Assembly: GCA_029834535.1 (NCBI GenBank)
Contig: JAQMWT010000043.1
Location: 26,268-90,267 of the forward strand
Origin: Chrysophaeum taylorii
Lineage: Eukaryota; Sar; Pelagophyceae; Pelagomonadales; Pelagomonadaceae
Reading direction: 5' to 3'
Length of the DNA: 64,000 bases
Shown: positions 14,548 through 64,000 of the stretch, in pieces
Layout: each line of letters opens with the position of its first letter
How positions within the stretch are numbered: position 1 is the stretch's first letter
Notes under the pieces: model-generated
What the model was told of the DNA's origin: nothing
Databases searched by the model: none
What the model saw: only the letters and a program-made list of their open reading frames with translations
Made by a program: the position numbers and the translations under genes

Positions 14548-17500
14548 TCACGAAGTGAGGTAAAGAGCACGAAGCCGGAGGAAGGAAGGAGCTTCCGTAC
14601 TGCGGGTGAAAATGTCGCTAAGATTGTGAAGGCGGGGTATGTGTTTGAGATCAATGATGTGGTTGCGATGATATTCGGCGGTACTGTAAAAGCGAATGTC
14701 AATATGGCGGGTGCGCCGTGTGAGACATTGGAGACGGACTTGGGTGACGGTGGTGCTATTATCAACATAAATTGGGGCCGTGTGACGAGGGAGATCAAAG
14801 TCATCAAAAAGTTTGAGAAGCCAAGAGAGCTCAGCAGTAGCAGCGTAAAGAGCGAGCAATTCAGCTTCAAAAGAAGAGCGAGCAAGTAAGTACTGCGAGC
14901 GGGAGCAGTAGGCTATCGTAGAGCCAGCAAGGAGAAAACAAAAACCAGTTGTAGAGTGGCGTTCATCAGGGTCGTCGGCCCAGCTGGAGTCGGAATAACC
15001 ACAGAGACGAAGGGTAGAATCGCGACCAAGAATAAGGGCAAGATCTTGAGAACCGTTGAGATAACGCAGAGTGTGGGATAAAGCGTGCCAGTGGGGTTTA
15101 CCAGGATTGTGGGAAAAGCGCGCACACTGATTGACGGACCAAGTGATATCAGGGCGAGTCATGATGGAGATGAAGAGGACACAGCCAACAATACGGCGAA
15201 AAGGGATGCGTGCCATGAAAATGTGATCTGGAGAACCAGGAGTAGGACAATCAGCCGCAGAAAGATGAAGACCTTTGGGAGCGGGAGTGAGTTCGGGTTT
15301 ACTGTTGATGAAGCGATGTTCGGTAAGTATTTCACGGATAGCATGGGATTGGTCAAGAGTGAGGGTTCTCCGAGGGCGATCACGCGTAATGCGAAGACCA
15401 ACGTAAGAGGTGAGATCAAGTTCATTGACGTCAGTGAAAGCGCGGAAACGGAGGAAAAAGGCTTGGTAAGCGCGGAAACGGAGGAAAAAGGCTTGGTAAT
15501 GGCCAGTGCAATGACGAGGGTGCGCCACAAGAAGATCATCAACGACCAGAACGAGACGTAGAACGACGGTAGAATTGAGCACGAGCTTGTAATGGCAAGT
15601 GTCACCAGATCCGCGGACGAAGCCACAATCATTGAGAAGGAAGCGTTCTAAATAAAGCCACCAATTGCGACAAGCTTGTTTGCAACCATACCAAGAGCGA
15701 CGGAGCTTGTAAACGATTTTGGAACCATCGGTGGGTTGGCGAGGAGCATAGCCTTCGGGTGGCCAGACATAGATGTCTTCGTCAATGGGAGCTTGAATAA
15801 AAGCGGAGCTGACATCCAACTTGTGCAAATCCCAGTCATGAACAGCGACAAAGGTTAGAAAGAAACGGATCGTGACGATGTTGGCAACCGGTGAGTAGGT
15901 GTCATGATAATCAATGCCGTGAACCTGGGTGTAACCGCGGACGACGAGGCGAGCCTTGTACGATTTGAAGCGGCCAGAGTCATACTTCTTGCGGAGGATC
16001 CACTTGAGGGTACAAATGTTGCCAGAAAAAGTCGAAGGAAGGCGAATAACATCCCAGCAACCAAGCTGACCAAGAGAGCTGTATTCTTTAGCGATGGCTT
16101 GCAACCAGCCAGGACGCCCAGGATTGGTCGGAGCTAAAGCTTCACGTAAATGGGTGGAAGTAATAGTAGTTTCGTCAAGGTCTGAATACTGAGACATTTT
16201 TTCGGAAGCAGAGTAATAAACGTGTGCATGGGGATCAACAAGGGTGTTAGCCAAACAAAGGGGAAGGAAGACATAATGAACTAACAAACGAAAGCTAACA
16301 GAAGAGACATACAAAGAGTTACAGGAGGAAACAGAAGCGACAGAGGAAACAGAATCAACATCGTGACAGGAGGAAACAGAATTGCCCGTATAAAAGTTTG
16401 TTGGTTGTTGTAACGCGCGTTGGTCGACTTTGCGCGGTCGGCCCCGTCTGGCGCGACGTAATGGTGCACGTTTCGTATTGTCCGGTAACAGCGTAGTCAG
16501 TGACGGTTGAGTTGTTTCAGGGGTGATCAGTCCCGATAAGGCCGGCTCCGGAGCATCAAAAACAGAAGACATGGGCGCGACGGCGGAAGATAAACGAGGG
16601 TCGTAATAAAATAAGTCAGGAAAACGAGAATCCACTAGAGACGGAGGAAGGGGTTGAGAGGACAGTGACTTACGCAGAGCGAAATTTTCGTCAAAACCAA
16701 CATCAATCGAGGTGTGGATGACAGGACCTGTGGGGCGTTGAAGCAATATGCGATATCCAGGGCCTCCAGAGGGATACCCAATGAAGATGCCGGTTATAGC
16801 TTTGGTAGGCCATTTGTCGCCAGTGAGAATTGCTGCTGGACAGCCCCAAACACGAAGAAAATCGACACGTGGGAGAGTTTCATGTAGCATTTCATGTGGC
16901 GTCATATATCCAGGATTAGAGGCATTTGGCATACGCTCAGAGATGAAGTCAGCCGTTTCCATGGCCCAACGCCAAAAATCAGGTGGACGGTGCGCATGTA
17001 CCAAAAGAGTGCGAGTAATATCAGCGGTTGCGCGATGAGAGCGTTCCACAACACCGGAAAAAGCGTGCGCCTGTGAAGTTTTGGACTGAGCTGCAGGGGC
17101 GCGTTTAAGCGCGATGTTGTTGCCCAGACAGAAGGTTTCGAATTGGCCCATAAGAGAGCGGCCACGATCGGTGTAGATGAGGGCAATGCGATATCCGAAT
17201 GGGCGAACCACGGTAGACAGAAAAAGTTCGAGTTGACGAGCGTTCGTAAGAGCATCGTGTCGTGGAGCAAAGTACCGCGTGCGGCGGCGCGTATGATCAT
17301 CGACAAACGCGAGGATCGCGCGATCTTGATATATGAAGGATGGGACGCCGGCACACATGAGATCGGCGTGAATAATAAGGTATGGGGCAACGGCACGTGG
17401 ACGAGACAAAGGCTCGGAGGAAGGAGGCGAAGTGGAAGCGGAAGCATGAACTTTACGTTGGCCAACATGCGCAGCATGCATTTTACCGAGAGCACAAGCA

Positions 17501-17697
17501 GGACAAAAAGAAAGCGACGCGGAGCTCGGGAAAAACGGTGCGCCAACAGCAAGAGAAGACAAACGCCGAAGATAGGGAGGACTATAATGACCAAGACGAG
17601 CATGCCAAAGGTCGAAGGTAAGTTGAGTGCGTTGAGACACAGCGGGAAACGCACAAGGGTCATGGACACGGGGGCAAGAAGAAAGAAAATGCCACAA
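14548..17697 (-). CDS. pol: Copia pol: integrase, reverse transcriptase, RNase H
   Basis: Long open frame of 1,049 codons with no ATG at its start; it is probably expressed as part of a longer reading. The integrase zinc region is HARLGHYSP...CPACALGKMH. The catalytic core is readable as IHADLMC...FVDDHTRR, IYTDRGRSLM and SGVVERSHR. The RT domain follows (LKWILRKKYDSGRFKSYKAR, LHKLDVSSAFIQA), with the active site LVVDDLLVA in place of the usual YVDD. RNase H has GYSDSSWADDPDERHSTTG, a SFEAEL.AL segment and a final LSDIFTRS. A 30-bp tandem duplication near 15.43-15.49 kb adds ten residues in frame (AFFLRFR... twice) just after the RT active site. Codon use is less GC-biased than in the host genes. 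Confidence 0.93.
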   Translation of the reverse strand: MWHFLSSCPRVHDPCAFPAVSQRTQLTFDLWHARLGHYSPPYLRRLSSLAVGAPFFPSSASLSFCPACALGKMHAAHVGQRKVHASASTSPPSSEPLSRPRAVAPYLIIHADLMCAGVPSFIYQDRAILAFVDDHTRRRTRYFAPRHDALTNARQLELFLSTVVRPFGYRIALIYTDRGRSLMGQFETFCLGNNIALKRAPAAQSKTSQAHAFSGVVERSHRATADITRTLLVHAHRPPDFWRWAMETADFISERMPNASNPGYMTPHEMLHETLPRVDFLRVWGCPAAILTGDKWPTKAITGIFIGYPSGGPGYRILLQRPTGPVIHTSIDVGFDENFALRKSLSSQPLPPSLVDSRFPDLFYYDPRLSSAVAPMSSVFDAPEPALSGLITPETTQPSLTTLLPDNTKRAPLRRARRGRPRKVDQRALQQPTNFYTGNSVSSCHDVDSVSSVASVSSCNSLYVSSVSFRLLVHYVFLPLCLANTLVDPHAHVYYSASEKMSQYSDLDETTITSTHLREALAPTNPGRPGWLQAIAKEYSSLGQLGCWDVIRLPSTFSGNICTLKWILRKKYDSGRFKSYKARLVVRGYTQVHGIDYHDTYSPVANIVTIRFFLTFVAVHDWDLHKLDVSSAFIQAPIDEDIYVWPPEGYAPRQPTDGSKIVYKLRRSWYGCKQACRNWWLYLERFLLNDCGFVRGSGDTCHYKLVLNSTVVLRLVLVVDDLLVAHPRHCTGHYQAFFLRFRAYQAFFLRFRAFTDVNELDLTSYVGLRITRDRPRRTLTLDQSHAIREILTEHRFINSKPELTPAPKGLHLSAADCPTPGSPDHIFMARIPFRRIVGCVLFISIMTRPDITWSVNQCARFSHNPGKPHWHALSHTLRYLNGSQDLALILGRDSTLRLCGYSDSSWADDPDERHSTTGFCFLLAGSTIAYCSRSQYLLARSSFEAELLALYAATAELSWLLKLFDDFDLPRHTAPIYVDNSTTVTQVRLQCLTRRTRHIDIRFYSTAEYHRNHIIDLKHIPRLHNLSDIFTRSTEAPSFLRLRALYLTS

Positions 17698-57077: not shown

Positions 57078-57321
57078 CGGCTACAACGCTTTTTTATCAG
57101 AGCCGTTGATTTGACCGTTGGACGATGACAGCTTCTTCGCTGTGTGGCGGCAACTCCTGACCGCTAAGGCTTACCCCCCCTCTCTCAAGGCTTGATACCC
57201 GTTCAACGGGACACCTTTCGACAAACCCAGACACATCCCGTCGGGCACATCCCTCATACCCCACAAACCCACCCACATCCTTCATTCATGCTCCCCACAC
57301 ACCCCCCCCTCTTAGCAGTCT
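57078..57321. other. Upstream flank of coiled-coil gene with inverted terminal word
   Basis: Holds the inverted copy of the Helitron terminal word at about 57288-57320 (CATGCTCCCCACACACC, C-run, TCTTAGCAGTC). Confidence 0.6.
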
Positions 57322-57416
57322 TAACTACTAATCGACAGATGTTTGTCTGTTTGTTTGTCTGTCTGTCTGTCTTTAAATGTCGACTGCTAAGAGGGGGGGG
57401 TGTGTGTGGGGAGCAT
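57288..57416. repeat. Long hairpin: ~33-bp inverted repeat around a GACA-tract loop
   Basis: CATGCTCCCCACACACC + C-run + TCTTAGCAGTC (57288-57320) faces GACTGCTAAGAG + G-run + TGTGTGTGGGGAGCATG (about 57383-57416). The ~62-bp loop holds ACTACTAATCGACAG and a (TGTC)n tract. Confidence 0.85.
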
Positions 57417-58380
57417 GAAGTCCCTCGATTTAGGGTAAGGATCATGTAGGCGCGAGAGTAAGGATCAGGTAGGCGCGAGAGCCAGACAGTGATCCTCCAA
57501 GCCGTCTACGGCGACCTCGCAGACTATTTCCACGAGCCGCGGCGGCTCTTTCAGCGCGCCATTCTCACGCCCCGTCGAAACAATGTTGTCGATGCTGACA
57601 ACGCGCGCATGACCGCGGCCTTTTTTTCCCGGAGACGAGGCGTCGGAGTTCTTTTCGGCTGACTAGGCTGGGTCGGAAGACGACGCCTCGCTCTTTATAG
57701 TCGAGTTTTCAACTCCCTGACAACCAACGGCATGCTGACTTTGATCGCGAGGTTAAAGTCTTCGCAACCTCGACCCGTCGCACGGCCTCTGCAACGGCAC
57801 CGGATACATGATCGATCGTGTCGTTGTCACCGAGGCTCCTCCAACCTGTATCCCGTAAGGCCCGCCTACGCCAAGCGATCAACAAGAGCCAGGGCCAGAC
57901 GCCCCGCGAGGTCGGCGTCCTCTTGCCCAAGCCCGTCTTCTGTCACGTCCAGCTCTACGTGGCTCTCTGTCGATCGGCAACCCCGAGGATTTGCTCTTCT
58001 GGGTCGACGACTCCACCCTACCCCACACGTGCTGCGCAATACCGATAAGCCCCCTCACGGCGTCTACACGCGCACTGTAGGTGAACTTACTGGGACCAGG
58101 TGAACTTACTGGGGTTAGAGATTGGGACTAGGTGAGCTGAGTGCCCAGGTGAACTAACTGGGACCAGGTGAACTAACTGGGACCAGGTGAACTTACTGGG
58201 GTGTTTAGAGTAAACTCAAGGGTTGGCGGCGCGTGCGGATCAAAGCAGCTTGGATTGGCGGGGGTGAGAGCGACGAGCTCAAAGGAGAGTGGGGTGAGTG
58301 GGTGTGAGCACGAGTGGGTTTACGCCGAACTTACTGGGGTAAGAGATTGGGAGTAGGTGAACTTACTGGCCTGCACTTGT
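57322..58380 (+). mobile_element. Helitron derivative, right inverted arm
   Basis: Plus-strand copy of the left arm (37665-38773), about 50 bp shorter. Order: TAACTACTAATCGACAG, GACA/TGTC tract, terminal word with GACTGCTAAGAG, two ATC(A)GGTAGGCGCGAGAG units, the helicase C-terminus, then a 3' part made of AGGTGAAC(T)TAACTGGGACC units and the GCAGCTTGGATTGGCGG module, ending at CTGCACTTGT. Both arms show the same jump from terminal sequence into mid-helicase, so they descend from one already deleted, mobile parent. No clear CTRR end with hairpin was identified. Confidence 0.82.
57492..58050 (+). pseudogene. Helitron PIF1-like helicase C-terminus (right arm)
   Basis: Pieces in successive frames reproduce the end of Helitron helicases: ILQAVYGDLADYFHEPRRLF, QRAILTPRRNNVVDADNARM, an acidic SADxxGSEDDASLF, VFNSLTTNGM, LCNGTGYMIDRVV, INKSQGQTPREVGVLLP, HVQLYVALCR, and VDDSTLPHT with RAAQYR at the end. 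INKSQGQT is helicase motif VI-type sequence. Frameshifts make it non-functional. Confidence 0.85.
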
Positions 58381-59080
58381 CGACATTTAAAGACACCTTT
58401 CCCTATCTTCTTAGTGACATCATACCTCTCTCTTGTGAGAAGCATTCTGGCTGTATTCCTTGTAGTATTCTTGCTATCATATACCATCTCTCCATCTTGT
58501 TGAGAGGCTTGGTGAGCGTGAGCAAGGTGTGTGGCGAGCCTATCCGACCCCGCGTCCGTGTTTTCCTCGTTCAGTGAGGTCTAGGACGAGTCGGTGAGTA
58601 CCATCTTTGTCACCCGGGGGTCGGGAAGGTTTTTCTGTGCCGCCATACGTGGTGGAGTACACGAGATCGTGCGACTACATCGGTCGCCGACGAGCGAGTG
58701 CTGCCGTACGCGTTGTATTACGTGGTCCGGATTTGTACGTGCGCCCTGATCAAGCACACGGAGTTCCATTGGACCGGTTTGCGTTGAGAATATACGCGAG
58801 CGTTGTTTGTGTTCGGTACGATCCGAGTGACGACGAACACGCGTGCGAGTTGGAAATCGCAGCGCATTCTCCCGGGGATTGATTTTGGTATAGCTGAACG
58901 GTGGAAGCTGTTTAGCGAGTGGGATCGCTACCCACGGGCATTTTTGAATTGCCAGCGGATTGGGAATTCCGCGAGTGCTGTTTTTACAGCGACAGATAGC
59001 GTTGTTGGAATCAACGTGAATTACTTCGAGTGATCGGATCCGGACGTGTTTCGAGATTCTTGATCGATATTTGATACAGT
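58381..59080. other. Probable LTR/leader of Ty3/Gypsy element
   Basis: No ORF with motifs. 58379 starts TGTCGACATTTAAAGACA, again the recurrent Helitron terminal word inverted. The 5' LTR of the downstream retrotransposon should be here, but without its 3' partner I cannot set ends or a primer-binding site. Confidence 0.4.
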
Positions 59081-62000
59081 ATGGAGATAAACGCAGACGT
59101 GCGTGAGGAAGAATCTCCTCCAGTTCTTCCCGCCGCCCCTGAGATAGGCCGCGAGGAAGGTGAATTAAGAGAGGCCGAGGCAGTCGACGTTGCTGACGTG
59201 CCCCCTGATGTGCCTCCGGATACTGCCATTTTTTCGCCGTTGAGTCCAACGACTCCGGACCGTGGCGAGCGTGTTACTATTGAGCGCGGATCTGCTGCCC
59301 GAAGTCGACTTCGTGAAGACCTCGAGCAGAGACGTCGCGAAAATGAACGATTAGCTGAGCGTTTTGCCAAGCAAGATGCGGATAAACCGTCTGGGAATGC
59401 GGATCCGCTGATCTTACGAGATCCTTTTTTGTGGGGCAAGAGAACGTGCCCGCACTGTGGGTTCTTCTGGACCACGCATGATGAAGATGAACACGGAAAT
59501 CGCGTAGTTTGCAACCGCGATCCGGATCGTTACTACTGTGCGATGTGGAAGCGAGTTCGTAAGCAGAAGAAGCAGCCCATATCGCGGTCCGATTGGGCGA
59601 AGCGTGATGATGCATCTCATGCGAACGCCACGCACGGATCGGAGCCTTCTAATGAAATTCAAACGGCCCTCACCGATCTTGGAACCACAATGGCGACCAT
59701 GGTGAGCGAGGTCAGAGGCATCAAGGATACTACGTCGTTCTCTACACGACAGCGAGACGGACGATCACCTTCTAGAAGATCGTCGCGCCGACATCGAAGC
59801 CAGAGCCCTGATCGAAAAGCCCATACTGCTCAAAGCAGCCCGAGTCCTTGCCGTCACCGGAGCTCTAGTCGCAATTCGCGCCGGCGCCGACGTCATCGAC
59901 ATTACGATGACGAGTATGACGGAGGCAGATATCAGGATAGTTTGGGACATTCGAGCGCAACTTTCGCGTTCCAATCTTTATGCGACGCGCCGCCAATGTC
60001 GGGGGTTGTCTTTTACCTGACGGCGCTCCCTGCCCGAGTCTCTGATGATGTTGCCGATGTCGCTGTAACGAGCAGCCATCGTTTGCAACAGGAGCAAAAT
60101 ACCACCAACGCTCGGGTCGTTCGGTGGCCTTCTACGTTGTATGTGGAAGCAATATCCGATGCTACTTTGGATTCTCCGTACTACTGGGAAGACTCAGATT
60201 CGGAGACCGACGAACCCATGCCGCAGGTTCCAGTGTCCCCCCATTCGTCAATGTGCATGTCTTGCAGGGCAGTTCATGATGATGACGTTAGACCTTTTGA
60301 GTTGACGTCGGGGACGACGCCTTCTTTTCCTGCGGGCCCCCCCGAGACCGTTTTAGCCGTTTTAGCCGATGTTCTAGCCGATACAGTTTTGGTCGCAGCA
60401 GAGCAGACCACAGCGGCGCCGATGGAGGAGAAGTTGACGGGAATGTCCGATTTGATGGACGAGAAACGACGATTACCCGAAGAGATAAAGGAGGAGATAT
60501 ATGTGCCTCCGATTGAGAAGTGTCAGAATTTGTTGTCAGCGAAACTGGGGAATGAAGAAGCAGCCGAAGCGGCGAGCGCCAATATAGACTCAGCGGCGAG
60601 ATGTAGAACGCCAGATATAGCAGCGGTGACGATGCAGATTCCGGGCGATGCGAAACCGGAGATACGATGTCATCACACTGCACTGTCGCCGAGCGATGGG
60701 GAAAAGATCGAGCAAGACCTCATCACCATCGGCTGCCTGGACCCTGGTACCCTCACGTTTATAGTTGGTCATATTTATAGACGACGAGACGGGCCGAAGT
60801 TCGCAACGACTTTAGGCGTGGATGGAATGGCTGATGTCTCTTATATTTGTCGTGGGATGGTTGAAAAACTGGAAAAGGATAGCATCATCCTTGACCGGGG
60901 CGATCTTCCAGTCGAGCGCACACTGTACGGGTCAGGATTGAATAAGACGACTATCCACAAATGGGTCGCATTGCGGATTGCGCTTGCGGACGACGTGGCC
61001 GTTCCCGTTGTTGCTATTGTGGCCGATACTAATCATCTATTTTTGCTGGGAGCGCGCGATATTCGGGTGTTTGGAGCCATAGTGGACTACCCGCGAAATC
61101 GCATTGCGTTTCTCCGCACACAAGTCGCTTATGGGCGCAAGAAGTTAAAAGTGCAGGATCGACGAGTCGATTCTCCGATTTTGACGTTCAGAACAACTTA
61201 TGACGAGAGCAATCCCGTGGTAGTTCAGGTTTATGGGCAACAGCACCATGCGATGCAAAAGAGCCAGAGCACAGTTGAGAACCGAGTCTACGCTCGCTTG
61301 TGCAAGATTGAAGACCTCCAGCGTCCACCGCCGAAACGAGCGGGAGCTTCGACGACTTGGGGAGTCCCTCCAGTTATGCCTTCTCAAAGTTCGAACAGCG
61401 ATGCCTATGAAGTGATAGCCTATGCTGCGCGCACGATGAAGGTCGAGCCTGGGCGCACCTACTGCGTGCCAGTCGCTCTTTCAGAGCCCATGGAAAACGG
61501 GCATGTTTTCGTTGCTACGTCTTCTGGGTACGAGCAACTCGGGGTAGTCGATGGAATGTGTTCTTCTCATGAGGATCATGATAAGTTCGCAACTCGAGTG
61601 GCGATATCCTCTACCCAAGATGTGCCGACCGTGATCACTCAAGGTGAAGTCCTTGCTTTGGGCGATATTGTTCGTTTTGATGACGAGCTGAATGCTGAGA
61701 CGGTCGACGATTTAACGAAGAATGGTGAAGCCGAATCTAACAAGGCTAGTGTATCATTTACTGTTTCGGTCGCAAGCCATCTGACTCAAGGCGATGCGGC
61801 TCCCGAACCGATGCTTTTGAGCTCGGTGCAGAAGGCGTCTCCTTCTGCCTATAAGAAGAAGAATTCTCGTCAAGAATCGCTCGATAACGACGATTTCGAC
61901 CGACGAACTGACGAGGAGGAAAAGAAATGCCGAGAAGTTGCAGAATGCGAGATTCGCCGAAGGTTTGAAAAGGTCCACTGGGTGCCGATCACGTATCGCA

Positions 62001-62782
62001 AGGTTGTGATGCTCTTCGGCGGCGCCGGAGGAAGTACTTTAGGACTGCAACGAGCGAACGAGTTGTGCGGGACGTCGTTTCGAGTCGTCCTTGCTCTTGA
62101 CTCTTCAACAGCTGCCAACAAGGTTCATCAGAAGAATTTTCCGAAGATACCTGTGGTTCAGCACACGCTCTGCGGACGATATGACTCGACCCTCCGACTG
62201 ATCCAGGCTTATTTGCCTGAAGCGGAATGGTCATCGTCGATGTGTATAGCGTCTCCACCCTGCGTTCATTCAGCACTCTGCAACTTGACATCCAGAGATG
62301 TTGACAAGGGTGTTACGGCCACTAACTGGACGATGAAGCTGTGCAAAATGGCTGGCTTCATGATGTGGCTGATTGAACAGGAGGCGTCCATTATTTCTTA
62401 TATAGCGCGCTTACACCCTTACGTGTACGTCGTCAATTTTCGTGATATCACGCCCACTCTGATGAGCTCTCGCGTGCGATTCTTGGTTTCCAGTCGCCCA
62501 CTGCACTTGCAAGAGGCTCCGAAGACATGTGTGAACATGCAACAAAAATTTGCTGCAGCTTTAGGTTATGCTCATGAACGCCACCTTCTCCAGCTGAATA
62601 ATCTTGGCTCGTCCCGAGAAGCAACAGACACGGCTTACACCGTTACGCGAGTTCCTCTTCGTCTGGGACCGCATCGCTCGGACACTCAGCCTTTGACTCT
62701 CGAGATGACGGCCGAGAACTCACGATGCCGGTGGATCATGATTGGGCTAGCTTGTCTAAGACAGATTCGTTCAAACATTTAG
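59081..62782 (+). CDS. Retrotransposon polyprotein: gag-like, protease-like, C5-DNA methyltransferase
   Basis: Intact 1,233-aa ORF. Residues 1-120 are acidic then a basic coiled coil. About 123-155 is a Cys/His cluster (CPHCGFFWTTHDEDEHG, VCNRDP..YYC) like a nucleic-acid-binding gag finger. About 227-285 is an Arg/Ser-rich stretch. Near 579 a retropepsin-like region reads LGVDGMADVSYI, aligning with xVDTGADVSLI, followed by LFLLGARDIRVFGAIVDY (family ILGMDWL....IDF). From about 973 the methyltransferase motifs appear in order: I (VVMLFGGAGGSTLGL), II (VLALDSSTAANKVHQKNFP), IV (ASPPCVHSALCN, with the PPC catalytic Cys near 1061), a VI-like Glu (MWLIEQEAS, cf. ENV) and VIII-like (MSSRVRFLVSS, cf. 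QxRxR). Motifs I and IV are convincing; VI and VIII are weaker. The target-recognition region and motif X were not identified. Confidence 0.85.
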   Translation: MEINADVREEESPPVLPAAPEIGREEGELREAEAVDVADVPPDVPPDTAIFSPLSPTTPDRGERVTIERGSAARSRLREDLEQRRRENERLAERFAKQDADKPSGNADPLILRDPFLWGKRTCPHCGFFWTTHDEDEHGNRVVCNRDPDRYYCAMWKRVRKQKKQPISRSDWAKRDDASHANATHGSEPSNEIQTALTDLGTTMATMVSEVRGIKDTTSFSTRQRDGRSPSRRSSRRHRSQSPDRKAHTAQSSPSPCRHRSSSRNSRRRRRHRHYDDEYDGGRYQDSLGHSSATFAFQSLCDAPPMSGVVFYLTALPARVSDDVADVAVTSSHRLQQEQNTTNARVVRWPSTLYVEAISDATLDSPYYWEDSDSETDEPMPQVPVSPHSSMCMSCRAVHDDDVRPFELTSGTTPSFPAGPPETVLAVLADVLADTVLVAAEQTTAAPMEEKLTGMSDLMDEKRRLPEEIKEEIYVPPIEKCQNLLSAKLGNEEAAEAASANIDSAARCRTPDIAAVTMQIPGDAKPEIRCHHTALSPSDGEKIEQDLITIGCLDPGTLTFIVGHIYRRRDGPKFATTLGVDGMADVSYICRGMVEKLEKDSIILDRGDLPVERTLYGSGLNKTTIHKWVALRIALADDVAVPVVAIVADTNHLFLLGARDIRVFGAIVDYPRNRIAFLRTQVAYGRKKLKVQDRRVDSPILTFRTTYDESNPVVVQVYGQQHHAMQKSQSTVENRVYARLCKIEDLQRPPPKRAGASTTWGVPPVMPSQSSNSDAYEVIAYAARTMKVEPGRTYCVPVALSEPMENGHVFVATSSGYEQLGVVDGMCSSHEDHDKFATRVAISSTQDVPTVITQGEVLALGDIVRFDDELNAETVDDLTKNGEAESNKASVSFTVSVASHLTQGDAAPEPMLLSSVQKASPSAYKKKNSRQESLDNDDFDRRTDEEEKKCREVAECEIRRRFEKVHWVPITYRKVVMLFGGAGGSTLGLQRANELCGTSFRVVLALDSSTAANKVHQKNFPKIPVVQHTLCGRYDSTLRLIQAYLPEAEWSSSMCIASPPCVHSALCNLTSRDVDKGVTATNWTMKLCKMAGFMMWLIEQEASIISYIARLHPYVYVVNFRDITPTLMSSRVRFLVSSRPLHLQEAPKTCVNMQQKFAAALGYAHERHLLQLNNLGSSREATDTAYTVTRVPLRLGPHRSDTQPLTLEMTAENSRCRWIMIGLACLRQIRSNI

Positions 62783-63978
62783 CGTCTGTCGTCCCTCCAG
62801 ACACTCTTGCGATTTTAGCAGTCGATCTGCACAACTCCGTCACCAGAGATTTCCGCCAAAGTGGTGAAGTTCTGCCGACCGCGTTGAGCCCGACAGATCG
62901 ATCCTTTGAGCAGTATTTGCGAATCTCCGACACCACCTTTCGTCACGTAGAGATTCCGCTGTTAAATACGCGTACTCGTGTCGTTAAGTGGGTGTCAAAA
63001 GATGATCTCCAGGATCCCACTAAATGGGAACCGCCAGAAGTTCCTATGCTTCCGCTTCCAACAGATGCGCCGGGGACGGCTCATGCTTTTTCTGCTGCCC
63101 CCCCCCCCCGACAATCGAAAGTGGACGTTCCGCCGGATCCTGAACCTGAACAGGAGCCGAAAGTAAGGCGCGAGCCGAATGTGCGCGTCAAAGGTGAAAA
63201 GATCAATAAGAGCCACCCTGAGGTGAGGTTCAAATACGAAGAAAAGTTCGATGTGCCATGGAAGGATGCGCCGCGCGATGCGGACGGTGTACCGTTACCG
63301 CAGATTCCCGAGCACGTCAAGGACAATGATGCGACGAAAGTCGTAATTCCGACGAAGGAAGAAGTTGAAAAGGTTGTTCGAGATCTAGGAATTCCCGACA
63401 ACCCGCATCTGGATGATGATGCGAAGATGATGTTGAGCCATTGCGTGCAATACGCGTGGGCTTTCTTTGATCCGATTATGAGACCCGTGGACTCGCCACC
63501 GGTTTCTCTACGATTTAAAGACGCAAACCCACGACCGATCAAGATGACGCCTTATAGGTTGACGCCAGCAAAGCTCGAGTGTCTCAGAAAGCAGATCACT
63601 GAGTGGTGTCGCGATGGAGTCATCCGACCGGCGAACTCTCCGTGGGGATTCCCTGTACTGATGCTGCCTAAGAAGGGAGCAGAGGCCGGGACGTCGAATG
63701 CTTTTCGTGCTGCAGTTGACTTGCGTCAGCTCAATGATCAGCTGGTCAATGACAGTTGGCCGAATATTCGTCAAGATGATGCTTTGGCTTTTCTTGCCAT
63801 GCGCCGTTGGCGGACGTGCATTGATATTCGATGGGGTTATCATAACTACGTTTGGACGCCGCTGCTCAGGACGCCGTTACGATGGTTAGTCCACTTGGAG
63901 CCCATAGTTTCTTGGCGCTTGCCTCTAGGAGGAAAACAGCAGGAGCTCTTTTGTAAGCAGATGGCTAGCAATACGTAA
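62725..63978 (+). CDS. pol: Ty3/Gypsy pol, reverse transcriptase N-terminal half, truncated by frameshift
   Basis: The ORF starts with ATG 58 nt before the first ORF ends, in the -1 frame relative to it. About 270 residues of charged, Pro-rich linker precede the RT (DVPPDPEPEQEPKVRREPN). The RT shows MTPYRLTPAKLECLRKQI, DGVIRPANSPWGFPVLMLPKK, FRAAVDLRQLNDQLVNDSWP and CIDIRWGYHNY, the standard Gypsy RT fingers and start of the palm with the first catalytic Asp. After GYHNYVW the match moves to another frame (MVSPLGAHSFLALAS, cf. FVTPLGLFEFLVMPF), and the open frame ends at 63978 before the YxDD motif. So this copy is mutated here, or the sequence has an error. Confidence 0.85.
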   Translation: MPVDHDWASLSKTDSFKHLASVVPPDTLAILAVDLHNSVTRDFRQSGEVLPTALSPTDRSFEQYLRISDTTFRHVEIPLLNTRTRVVKWVSKDDLQDPTKWEPPEVPMLPLPTDAPGTAHAFSAAPPPRQSKVDVPPDPEPEQEPKVRREPNVRVKGEKINKSHPEVRFKYEEKFDVPWKDAPRDADGVPLPQIPEHVKDNDATKVVIPTKEEVEKVVRDLGIPDNPHLDDDAKMMLSHCVQYAWAFFDPIMRPVDSPPVSLRFKDANPRPIKMTPYRLTPAKLECLRKQITEWCRDGVIRPANSPWGFPVLMLPKKGAEAGTSNAFRAAVDLRQLNDQLVNDSWPNIRQDDALAFLAMRRWRTCIDIRWGYHNYVWTPLLRTPLRWLVHLEPIVSWRLPLGGKQQELFCKQMASNT

Positions 63979-64000
63979 TCAACGAAGTACACCGAAAAAG

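Follow-up and report, generated by a model that had tools for sequence, protein, structure and literature searches.

A frameshifted Ty3/Gypsy retrotransposon of Chrysophaeum taylorii belongs to a family with a putative C5-methyltransferase domain upstream of reverse transcriptase, and Copia elements in that genome bear another

The described systems closest to the element reported here are retrotransposons of Klebsormidium and Symbiodinium that encode DNA methyltransferases (DNMTs), precedents named in the initial annotation of this DNA and borne out by PMC5890265. There, KnitGypsy-Dnmt3 of Klebsormidium nitens is described as a Gypsy element with a Dnmt3 within its Pol open reading frame (ORF), and SymbioLINE-Dnmt and SymbioDIRS-Dnmt3 are described from Symbiodinium, whose abundant Copia elements are without a DNMT. 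According to the same paper, two SymbioDIRS DNMTs methylated CG de novo in yeast. A transposon-borne DNA methyltransferase from an alga, that of Sola1-1_Ec32 of Ectocarpus, appears in PMC12477816, and microeukaryotic DNMTs are surveyed in PMC9998398. Here we analyzed a 64,000-nucleotide stretch of Chrysophaeum taylorii DNA (the window), which forms the end of contig JAQMWT010000043.1 (C43) in an assembly of 70.8 Mb and 697 contigs. It contains a worn copy of a Ty3/Gypsy retrotransposon whose family carries, very probably, a member of the C5-methyltransferase superfamily.

The initial annotation had placed two overlapping ORFs at 59081-62782 and 62725-63978, and both are present. The features of the element are given below.

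59081-62782, plus strand: ORF1, 1233 amino acids; polyprotein remnant that runs from the N-terminus to candidate motif VIII of the methyltransferase and closes with a short tail out of frame
59360-59372, plus strand: deletion junction; about 1154 bp missing relative to contig C235, with the presumed Gag region gone
59447-59540, plus strand: Cys/His-rich stretch CPHCGFFWTTHDEDEHGNRVVCNRDPDRYYC, a possible Gag-type zinc knuckle read from the translation, without a profile match
60780-61110, plus strand: aspartic-protease-like stretch (VDGMADVSY ... FLLGARDIRVFG), a pattern only, with DGMA at the usual DTGA position
61961-62716, plus strand: putative C5-methyltransferase domain (PF00145), motifs I-VIII; 252 amino acids conserved in other copies
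About 62013-62030, plus strand: motif I (FGGAGG) of this domain
62249-62263, plus strand: motif IV (ASPPC) of this domain
62375-62383, plus strand: candidate motif VI (EQE) of this domain
62471-62479, plus strand: candidate motif VIII (RVR) of this domain
62717-62782, plus strand: out-of-frame tail of ORF1 past the frameshift, where 29 of 29 other copies read keep the frame
62725-62870, plus strand: start of ORF2 with candidate motifs IX and X (MPVDHDW ... HLASVVPPDTLAILAVDL), continuous with the domain in relatives and weakly alignable to DNMT2 C-termini
62871-63978, plus strand: remainder of ORF2, a linker and the N-terminal part of the Gypsy reverse transcriptase (RT), by tblastn to relative L045

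As the initial annotation had claimed, the ORF1 domain contains motifs I (FGGAGG), II (LALDS) and IV (ASPPC), and motifs I, IV, VI and VIII follow in order with the catalytic Cys, the last two being non-consensus (EQE and RVR). The whole of ORF1 matched the Pfam family PF00145 at an E value of 0.011, below the cut-off, and the whole ORFs of two relatives gave 1.3e-4 (L046, 21.9 bits) and 1.1e-3 (L045, 18.9 bits) against a cut-off of 22 bits. When 332-amino-acid domains were isolated from relatives, all 12 of the aligned copies matched PF00145; the top score among them, 26.8 bits (E 4.2e-6), is above the cut-off. These 12 members exclude the window copy; the alignment used here (A1) comprises 12 Gypsy copies, with L029, L030 (which has a stop) and L033 left out and L038 added. 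In relatives, the domain continues into the stretches L(T/N)LxMTxELLTMP and HLASVVPPDTxAxL, which we tentatively assign to motifs IX and X. In the window, the domain was found by tblastn at a single locus in two pieces (61931-62716 and 62719-62925), with one further match at a chance-level E value of 0.15.

The domain could in principle be another Rossmann-fold methyltransferase from outside the C5 family with a fortuitous PPC. The 51 profile positions to which the HMMER alignment is confined and a contact of one of the 12 members with Methyltransf_15 (E 0.12) would fit this explanation. PF00145 was, however, the sole Pfam family matched by all 12 members, and the TIGR00675 (dcm) profile was matched by 11 of them, at best with an E value of 1.3e-3, far below its cut-off. 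In addition, 38 residues separate the catalytic Cys from the candidate motif VI Glu (EQE), and the corresponding spacing in M.HhaI is likewise 38 residues. Profile comparison by hhalign with the host DNMT2 paired motifs I, II and IV (PPC), with a P value of 0.0026. These results make an origin outside the C5 family very unlikely.

Several observations count against assignment to the C5 superfamily. The Pfam alignment covers profile positions 2-52 only, about motifs I to III. Motifs IV, VI and VIII are our own assignments, VI and VIII having been made by eye; motif VI is EQE rather than ENV, and motif X is without GN. In the comparison of candidate motifs IX and X with DNMT2 C-termini, scores were reached by 15 and 35 of 2,000 shuffles in the two best of eight comparisons and by at least 130 of 2,000 in the other six. 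The hhalign probability for the host DNMT2 was only 11.6%, and hhalign of the domain against the DNMT5-like host protein gave nothing. A single-sequence AlphaFold2 model of the residues encoded at 61931-62716 was uninformative, with a predicted local distance difference test score of 32.5. Separately, protein searches with the Gypsy domain of L045 and L046 and the Copia domain of L014 found no homologue outside the genome at E values of 0.001 or below, with methods that reach only relatives sharing short words and collections that may hold few algal proteins. A scan of viral_contigs with alignment A1, subject to the same limits, also found no homologue.

A search of the Protein Data Bank (PDB) with the domain profile returned three chains up to an E value of 10, and the top two, DNMT2 at 0.14 and 0.15, also bear on the substrate. 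Like DNMT2, the domain may be a C5-methyltransferase of RNA, with the RNA of the element or the tRNA primer as its target. DNMT2 entries were the sole C5-methyltransferases among the three matches, the SPPC of motif IV is as in DNMT2, and the domain adjoins the RT, where primer and genomic RNA would bind. But these PDB matches are not significant, which also weighs against the C5 assignment itself, and they span residues 24-82 only. Alignment A1 does not contain the CFT stretch found in DNMT2, and no phylogenetic tie joins the domain to DNMT2. We consider an RNA substrate improbable.

The gene order of the family was established from relatives. L045 encodes a single ORF of 2,957 amino acids from the first ATG, in which RVT_1 (1891-2055), RNase H (2150-2262) and rve (2522-2615) follow the Ty3/Gypsy Pol order. 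The RNase H part matches two profiles and the integrase part both the zinc-binding and the core domain, and PF00145 lies upstream of the RT, below the cut-off. The ORF of L045 is located between two direct long terminal repeats (LTRs), each of 336 bp, with 100% identity to one another and TG...CA ends (TGTGGCG...CGCCACA). The identity of these LTRs points to a young copy. A primer-binding-site-like TGG sequence occurs two bases past the LTR, and no target-site duplication was seen at L045. The evidence for paired LTRs comes from this one relative; the window retains the 5' LTR only, and of the RT, RNase H and integrase series it has only the RT N-terminus.

Upstream of the methyltransferase domain, assignments are less firm. 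The initial annotation had put the domain between protease and RT; its position upstream of the RT held, and the protease was seen only as a DGMA / LGxRD pattern. DGMA is present in the window, L045 (residues about 940-1050) and L046, and Pfam and PDB profile searches of the Gypsy ORFs found no protease. The N-terminal 336 amino acids of L046 matched no Pfam family except RecQ5 at an E value of 0.65, and the Gag region of the family polyprotein is presumed from position alone. These results suggest a family polyprotein of the order Gag (presumed), protease-like, C5-methyltransferase, RT, RNase H and integrase in a single ORF, of which the window element is a worn and frameshifted copy. That a Ty3/Gypsy element captured a C5-methyltransferase, the central claim of the initial annotation, is supported by the PF00145 matches of 12 of 12 relatives and by the location upstream of the RT in one ORF.

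The assignment of ORF2 to a Gypsy RT was upheld by homology. No Pfam RT match was obtained for ORF2 of the window, and tblastn gave 76% identity to L045 over 419 amino acids, the whole of ORF2; since L045 has RVT_1, RNase H and integrase, ORF2 is identified as RT on this basis. The initial annotation had described the second ORF as overlapping the first. In the window copy the frame breaks at about 62716, within the methyltransferase domain, whereas 29 of 29 other copies read (of at least 141) are in frame there. The overlapping ORFs are therefore one frameshift-broken polyprotein and not a native layout, and on the same grounds we rejected programmed frameshifting from ORF1 into ORF2. Because the frameshift cuts the domain, candidate motifs IX and X fall at the start of ORF2. 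A second disturbance, in the RT frame, begins at about 63843, ahead of the point at which relatives have the FVDDI motif. Single frameshifts in the window copy could each be explained by mutation or by assembly error. The contig ends at the window edge, position 64000, and the window element is consequently without its 3' part.

Compared with KnitGypsy-Dnmt3 as PMC5890265 describes it, the present family is alike in having a DNMT-type domain inside a Gypsy Pol ORF, in intronless copies and under purifying selection. It differs in that KnitGypsy-Dnmt3 carries a Dnmt3 and repeats described as DIRS-like, whereas L045 has ordinary direct 336-bp LTRs, the domain is unassigned to Dnmt3 and the host is another one. 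The Symbiodinium elements in that paper share the very many retrotransposon DNMTs under purifying selection but are LINE and DIRS elements, unlike the LTR elements (Gypsy and Copia) here. Sola1-1_Ec32 differs in being a DNA transposon with a predicted N4-cytosine/N6-adenine enzyme rather than a C5 enzyme, according to PMC12477816. The initial annotation had known of no report from this kind of host. Among the matches listed from open-licence PMC literature, we recognised no description of these Gypsy or Copia elements; however, one sentence in PMC6338049 names stramenopiles, together with red and green algae, as also having Gypsy and DIRS elements that encode methylases (adenine or cytosine).

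The family is numerous. The 273-amino-acid domain of the window matched at least 141 places in the genome; a query from the second subfamily matched 121 places among the matches listed, some of them additional to the first set, and an RT query matched 150 among those listed. The contig pairs C10/C297 and C25/C521 carry the same elements at nearly identical coordinates, so some alleles were perhaps counted twice and the copy counts may be inflated. Two subfamilies were distinguished: A, that of the window, with 94-97% identity at the 29 closest other places, and B, represented by L045, which is 83% identical to the window.

Selection on the domain was estimated from Nei-Gojobori counts between subfamilies A and B. 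In three pairs, the ratio of nonsynonymous to synonymous substitution (dN/dS) was 0.059, 0.041 and 0.054 for the methyltransferase domain, 0.053, 0.016 and 0.056 for RT windows, and 0.036, 0.134 and 0.044 for RNase H-integrase windows. The proportion of synonymous differences in the domain pairs was 0.70-0.74, near saturation, which makes these ratios approximate and tells against leaning on their exact values. In L046, both opening windows (presumed Gag) were saturated; the two after them, between the presumed Gag and protease-like regions, gave about 0.50, and one further window was saturated. The protease-like and following stretch gave 0.11, 0.215 and 0.144, and one window over the domain was then saturated. 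From these sequence comparisons, amino-acid constraint on the methyltransferase domain at the level of the RT is clear.

Conservation of individual residues bears on whether the domain is an active enzyme. A catalytically dead methyltransferase fold with a structural, DNA-binding or decoy role would accommodate the off-consensus EQE at motif VI, the missing GN at motif X and the CpG composition described below. Such a fold would be expected to drift at its active-site positions, but in all 12 members of A1 motif I is invariant, as are the catalytic Cys and both Arg candidates of motif VIII, and the candidate motif VI Glu is kept in 11. The catalytic Cys was present in all 30 A-type copies read, the window included, and a stop within the 307 codons read was found in five of the 30, the window among them. 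The conservation of the Copia motifs (below) likewise speaks against inactivity, and we regard a dead domain as unlikely.

A PF00145 search of the genome gave 57 matches among those listed, and a group of these corresponded to Ty1/Copia elements (loci read: L003-L008, L012-L014 and L051, some overlapping).

L051:2136-7955 (G000:C96), also L012, L013 and L014: Copia element with a methyltransferase, the domain lying between a protease-like DGGA stretch and integrase

The 1,939-amino-acid ORF of L051 contains PF00145 at 336-462 (1.1e-7), rve at 1003-1097 (E 0.006, below the cut-off) and RVT_2 at 1673-1920 (1.5e-38). Integrase thus precedes RVT_2 in the same ORF as PF00145, the arrangement of a Ty1/Copia element with a methyltransferase. 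The motifs of this domain are AGGLHQEGF, LPCQHLS, ENV and FGDxISKxRYLAV. Motifs I, IV and VIII matched in eight of eight copies and ENV in seven, with ENA in the other, a pattern not expected of a dead enzyme; candidate motif IX, SENARIC, was exact in three of the eight, had one change in two and was not found in three. With the Copia domain profile, 18 PDB sequences were found up to an E value of 10, of which 15 were cytosine-specific methyltransferases, mostly M.HhaI entries (best E 0.01), and three were unrelated. A search with the domain listed 140 matches at 65-100% identity, some being two pieces of one copy. The dN/dS of the domain was 0.086-0.138 in seven comparisons; in all six cases where both were measurable, it fell below the value for the protease-like side upstream.

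We compared the two domains with each other. No match over the methyltransferase motifs was obtained by hhalign between Gypsy and Copia, the alignment found lying on an unrelated stretch (P 0.14), and derivation from one captured gene was rejected on this evidence, which is weak given the shallow alignments. The Copia alignment (A3) comprises five copies, with L007 (stops), L008 and L013 left out. A Copia alignment also gave no match to the host DNMT2, perhaps due to long gapped flanks in A2. The simplest reading of these comparisons would be two independent captures of different enzymes, and given that the alignments are shallow, the two domains may share a very old common origin.

In PMC12344493, DNMT3 is stated to occur in LTR Copia and DIRS elements, with PMC5890265 as the reference; because the latter describes Gypsy, the Copia statement may be a slip. 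A DNMT in an LTR Copia would be a likeness to the present elements, but that statement is about DNMT3 in streptophytes and dinoflagellates; for the Copia domain here, the best PDB match, below significance, is M.HhaI.

The window also contains an ordinary Copia pol at 14551-17697 on the minus strand, with gag_pre-integrase, SH3_retrovirus and RVT_2. The Copia methyltransferase domain gave no tblastn match in the window at E values up to 1, and this Copia element appears to be without the domain.

The two best PF00145 matches in the genome were host genes. L001 is a DNMT2 orthologue (E 3.9e-39 to 1g55), and L002/L010 encodes a protein with a DNMT plus SNF2, which we take to resemble DNMT5. Among the PF00145 matches inspected (of 57), these are the only recognised full-length host C5-methyltransferase genes; intron-split genes could be missed. 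A protein in L011 combines a bipartite-looking leader (ARAFTAP) with light-harvesting features; taken with the DNMT5-like gene, it would be in keeping with an algal host that has a complex red plastid.

In sequence, the Gypsy domain is in frame just upstream of the RT, keeps the catalytic Cys and shows purifying selection like that on the RT. Because one reading frame runs from the protease-like region through the domain to the RT, packaging of the domain together with the RT would be expected. The methyltransferase, cleaved from Pol or still fused to it, may enter the virus-like particle with the RT and methylate cytosines of the element's own complementary DNA (cDNA) before or during integration. 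New copies would thus arrive with a host-like mark, and the benefit would be protection or tolerance of the new copy by host machinery that includes the DNMT5-like enzyme. The same selective pressure would explain the second, different methyltransferase at the equivalent place in Copia. The CG methylation by two SymbioDIRS DNMTs in yeast offers a precedent for such activity. The initial annotation had proposed either self-methylation or a change of host methylation, and either may be the role. That the window element is a worn copy of a Gypsy family with a selected C5-methyltransferase that methylates its own cDNA is a reading to which we give about an even chance.

Two observations weigh against self-methylation, at least in a strong form. 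The observed/expected ratio of CpG was 1.17-1.33 in the Gypsy sequences measured; three Copia loci gave 1.035-1.071 and four host gene loci 1.33-1.51. With every element measured above 1, the composition bears no trace of heavy CpG methylation followed by deamination, as a dead domain would also predict. The TpG+CpA values were 0.95-1.02, 1.12-1.13 and 0.69-0.90, respectively. CpG in Copia is below that of the host loci, as is its G+C content. In addition, KnitGypsy-Dnmt3 and the SymbioLINE DNMTs gave no methylation in a yeast assay that the authors of PMC5890265 regard as inconclusive.

The window copy also belongs to a shortened group. Its deletion of about 1154 bp recurs on C244 and C9 at a site that differs by no more than a few bases, and a spliced intron was rejected as its cause because the junction is without GT...AG. 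Among 40 listed 5' ends, a listed A-type methyltransferase could be assigned as partner to 15, and three of these pairs, the window included, showed short spacing; the other 25 were unpaired, possibly owing to deletions or to an effect of the listing. These results suggest that a sublineage without the presumed Gag region has probably spread, perhaps moving in trans on Gag from other copies.

The start of the window's 5' LTR, TGTGGCGGCAAC, matches the LTR start of the relative with two identical 336-bp LTRs.

57143-58647, plus strand: interrupted 5' LTR, about 332 bp of LTR sequence; its end was set by alignment to the LTR of a relative and is approximate to a few bases
57219-58391, strand unassigned: insertion that splits the 5' LTR; a 9-bp duplication GACACCTTT lies on either side, at 57210-57218 and 58392-58400

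The insertion contains a 19-bp tandem array (58079-58200) and inverted repeats. In contrast to the window's 5' LTR, those of L046 and L047 are uninterrupted. Sequence similar to the insertion flanks an element on C5 (L050).

Because retrotransposons are usually silenced by DNA methylation, it is paradoxical for an element to encode the enzyme itself, and few cases have been described. The new finding here is a putative Copia-borne C5-methyltransferase located upstream of integrase and different from the Gypsy one in the same genome, and the captures by the two superfamilies appear independent. We think it moderately probable that Gypsy and Copia each captured a different C5-methyltransferase, placed after the protease-like region and ahead of the Pol domain that follows, both now under purifying selection, in convergence for methylating their own cDNA or RNA, with the Gag-less Gypsy sublineage perhaps using Gag in trans. 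The genome offers a natural comparison between young Gypsy and Copia carriers and ordinary Copia copies in which no domain was found, one of them in the window. The occurrence of different, selected C5-methyltransferases in two unrelated LTR superfamilies argues for a repeated benefit to the element.

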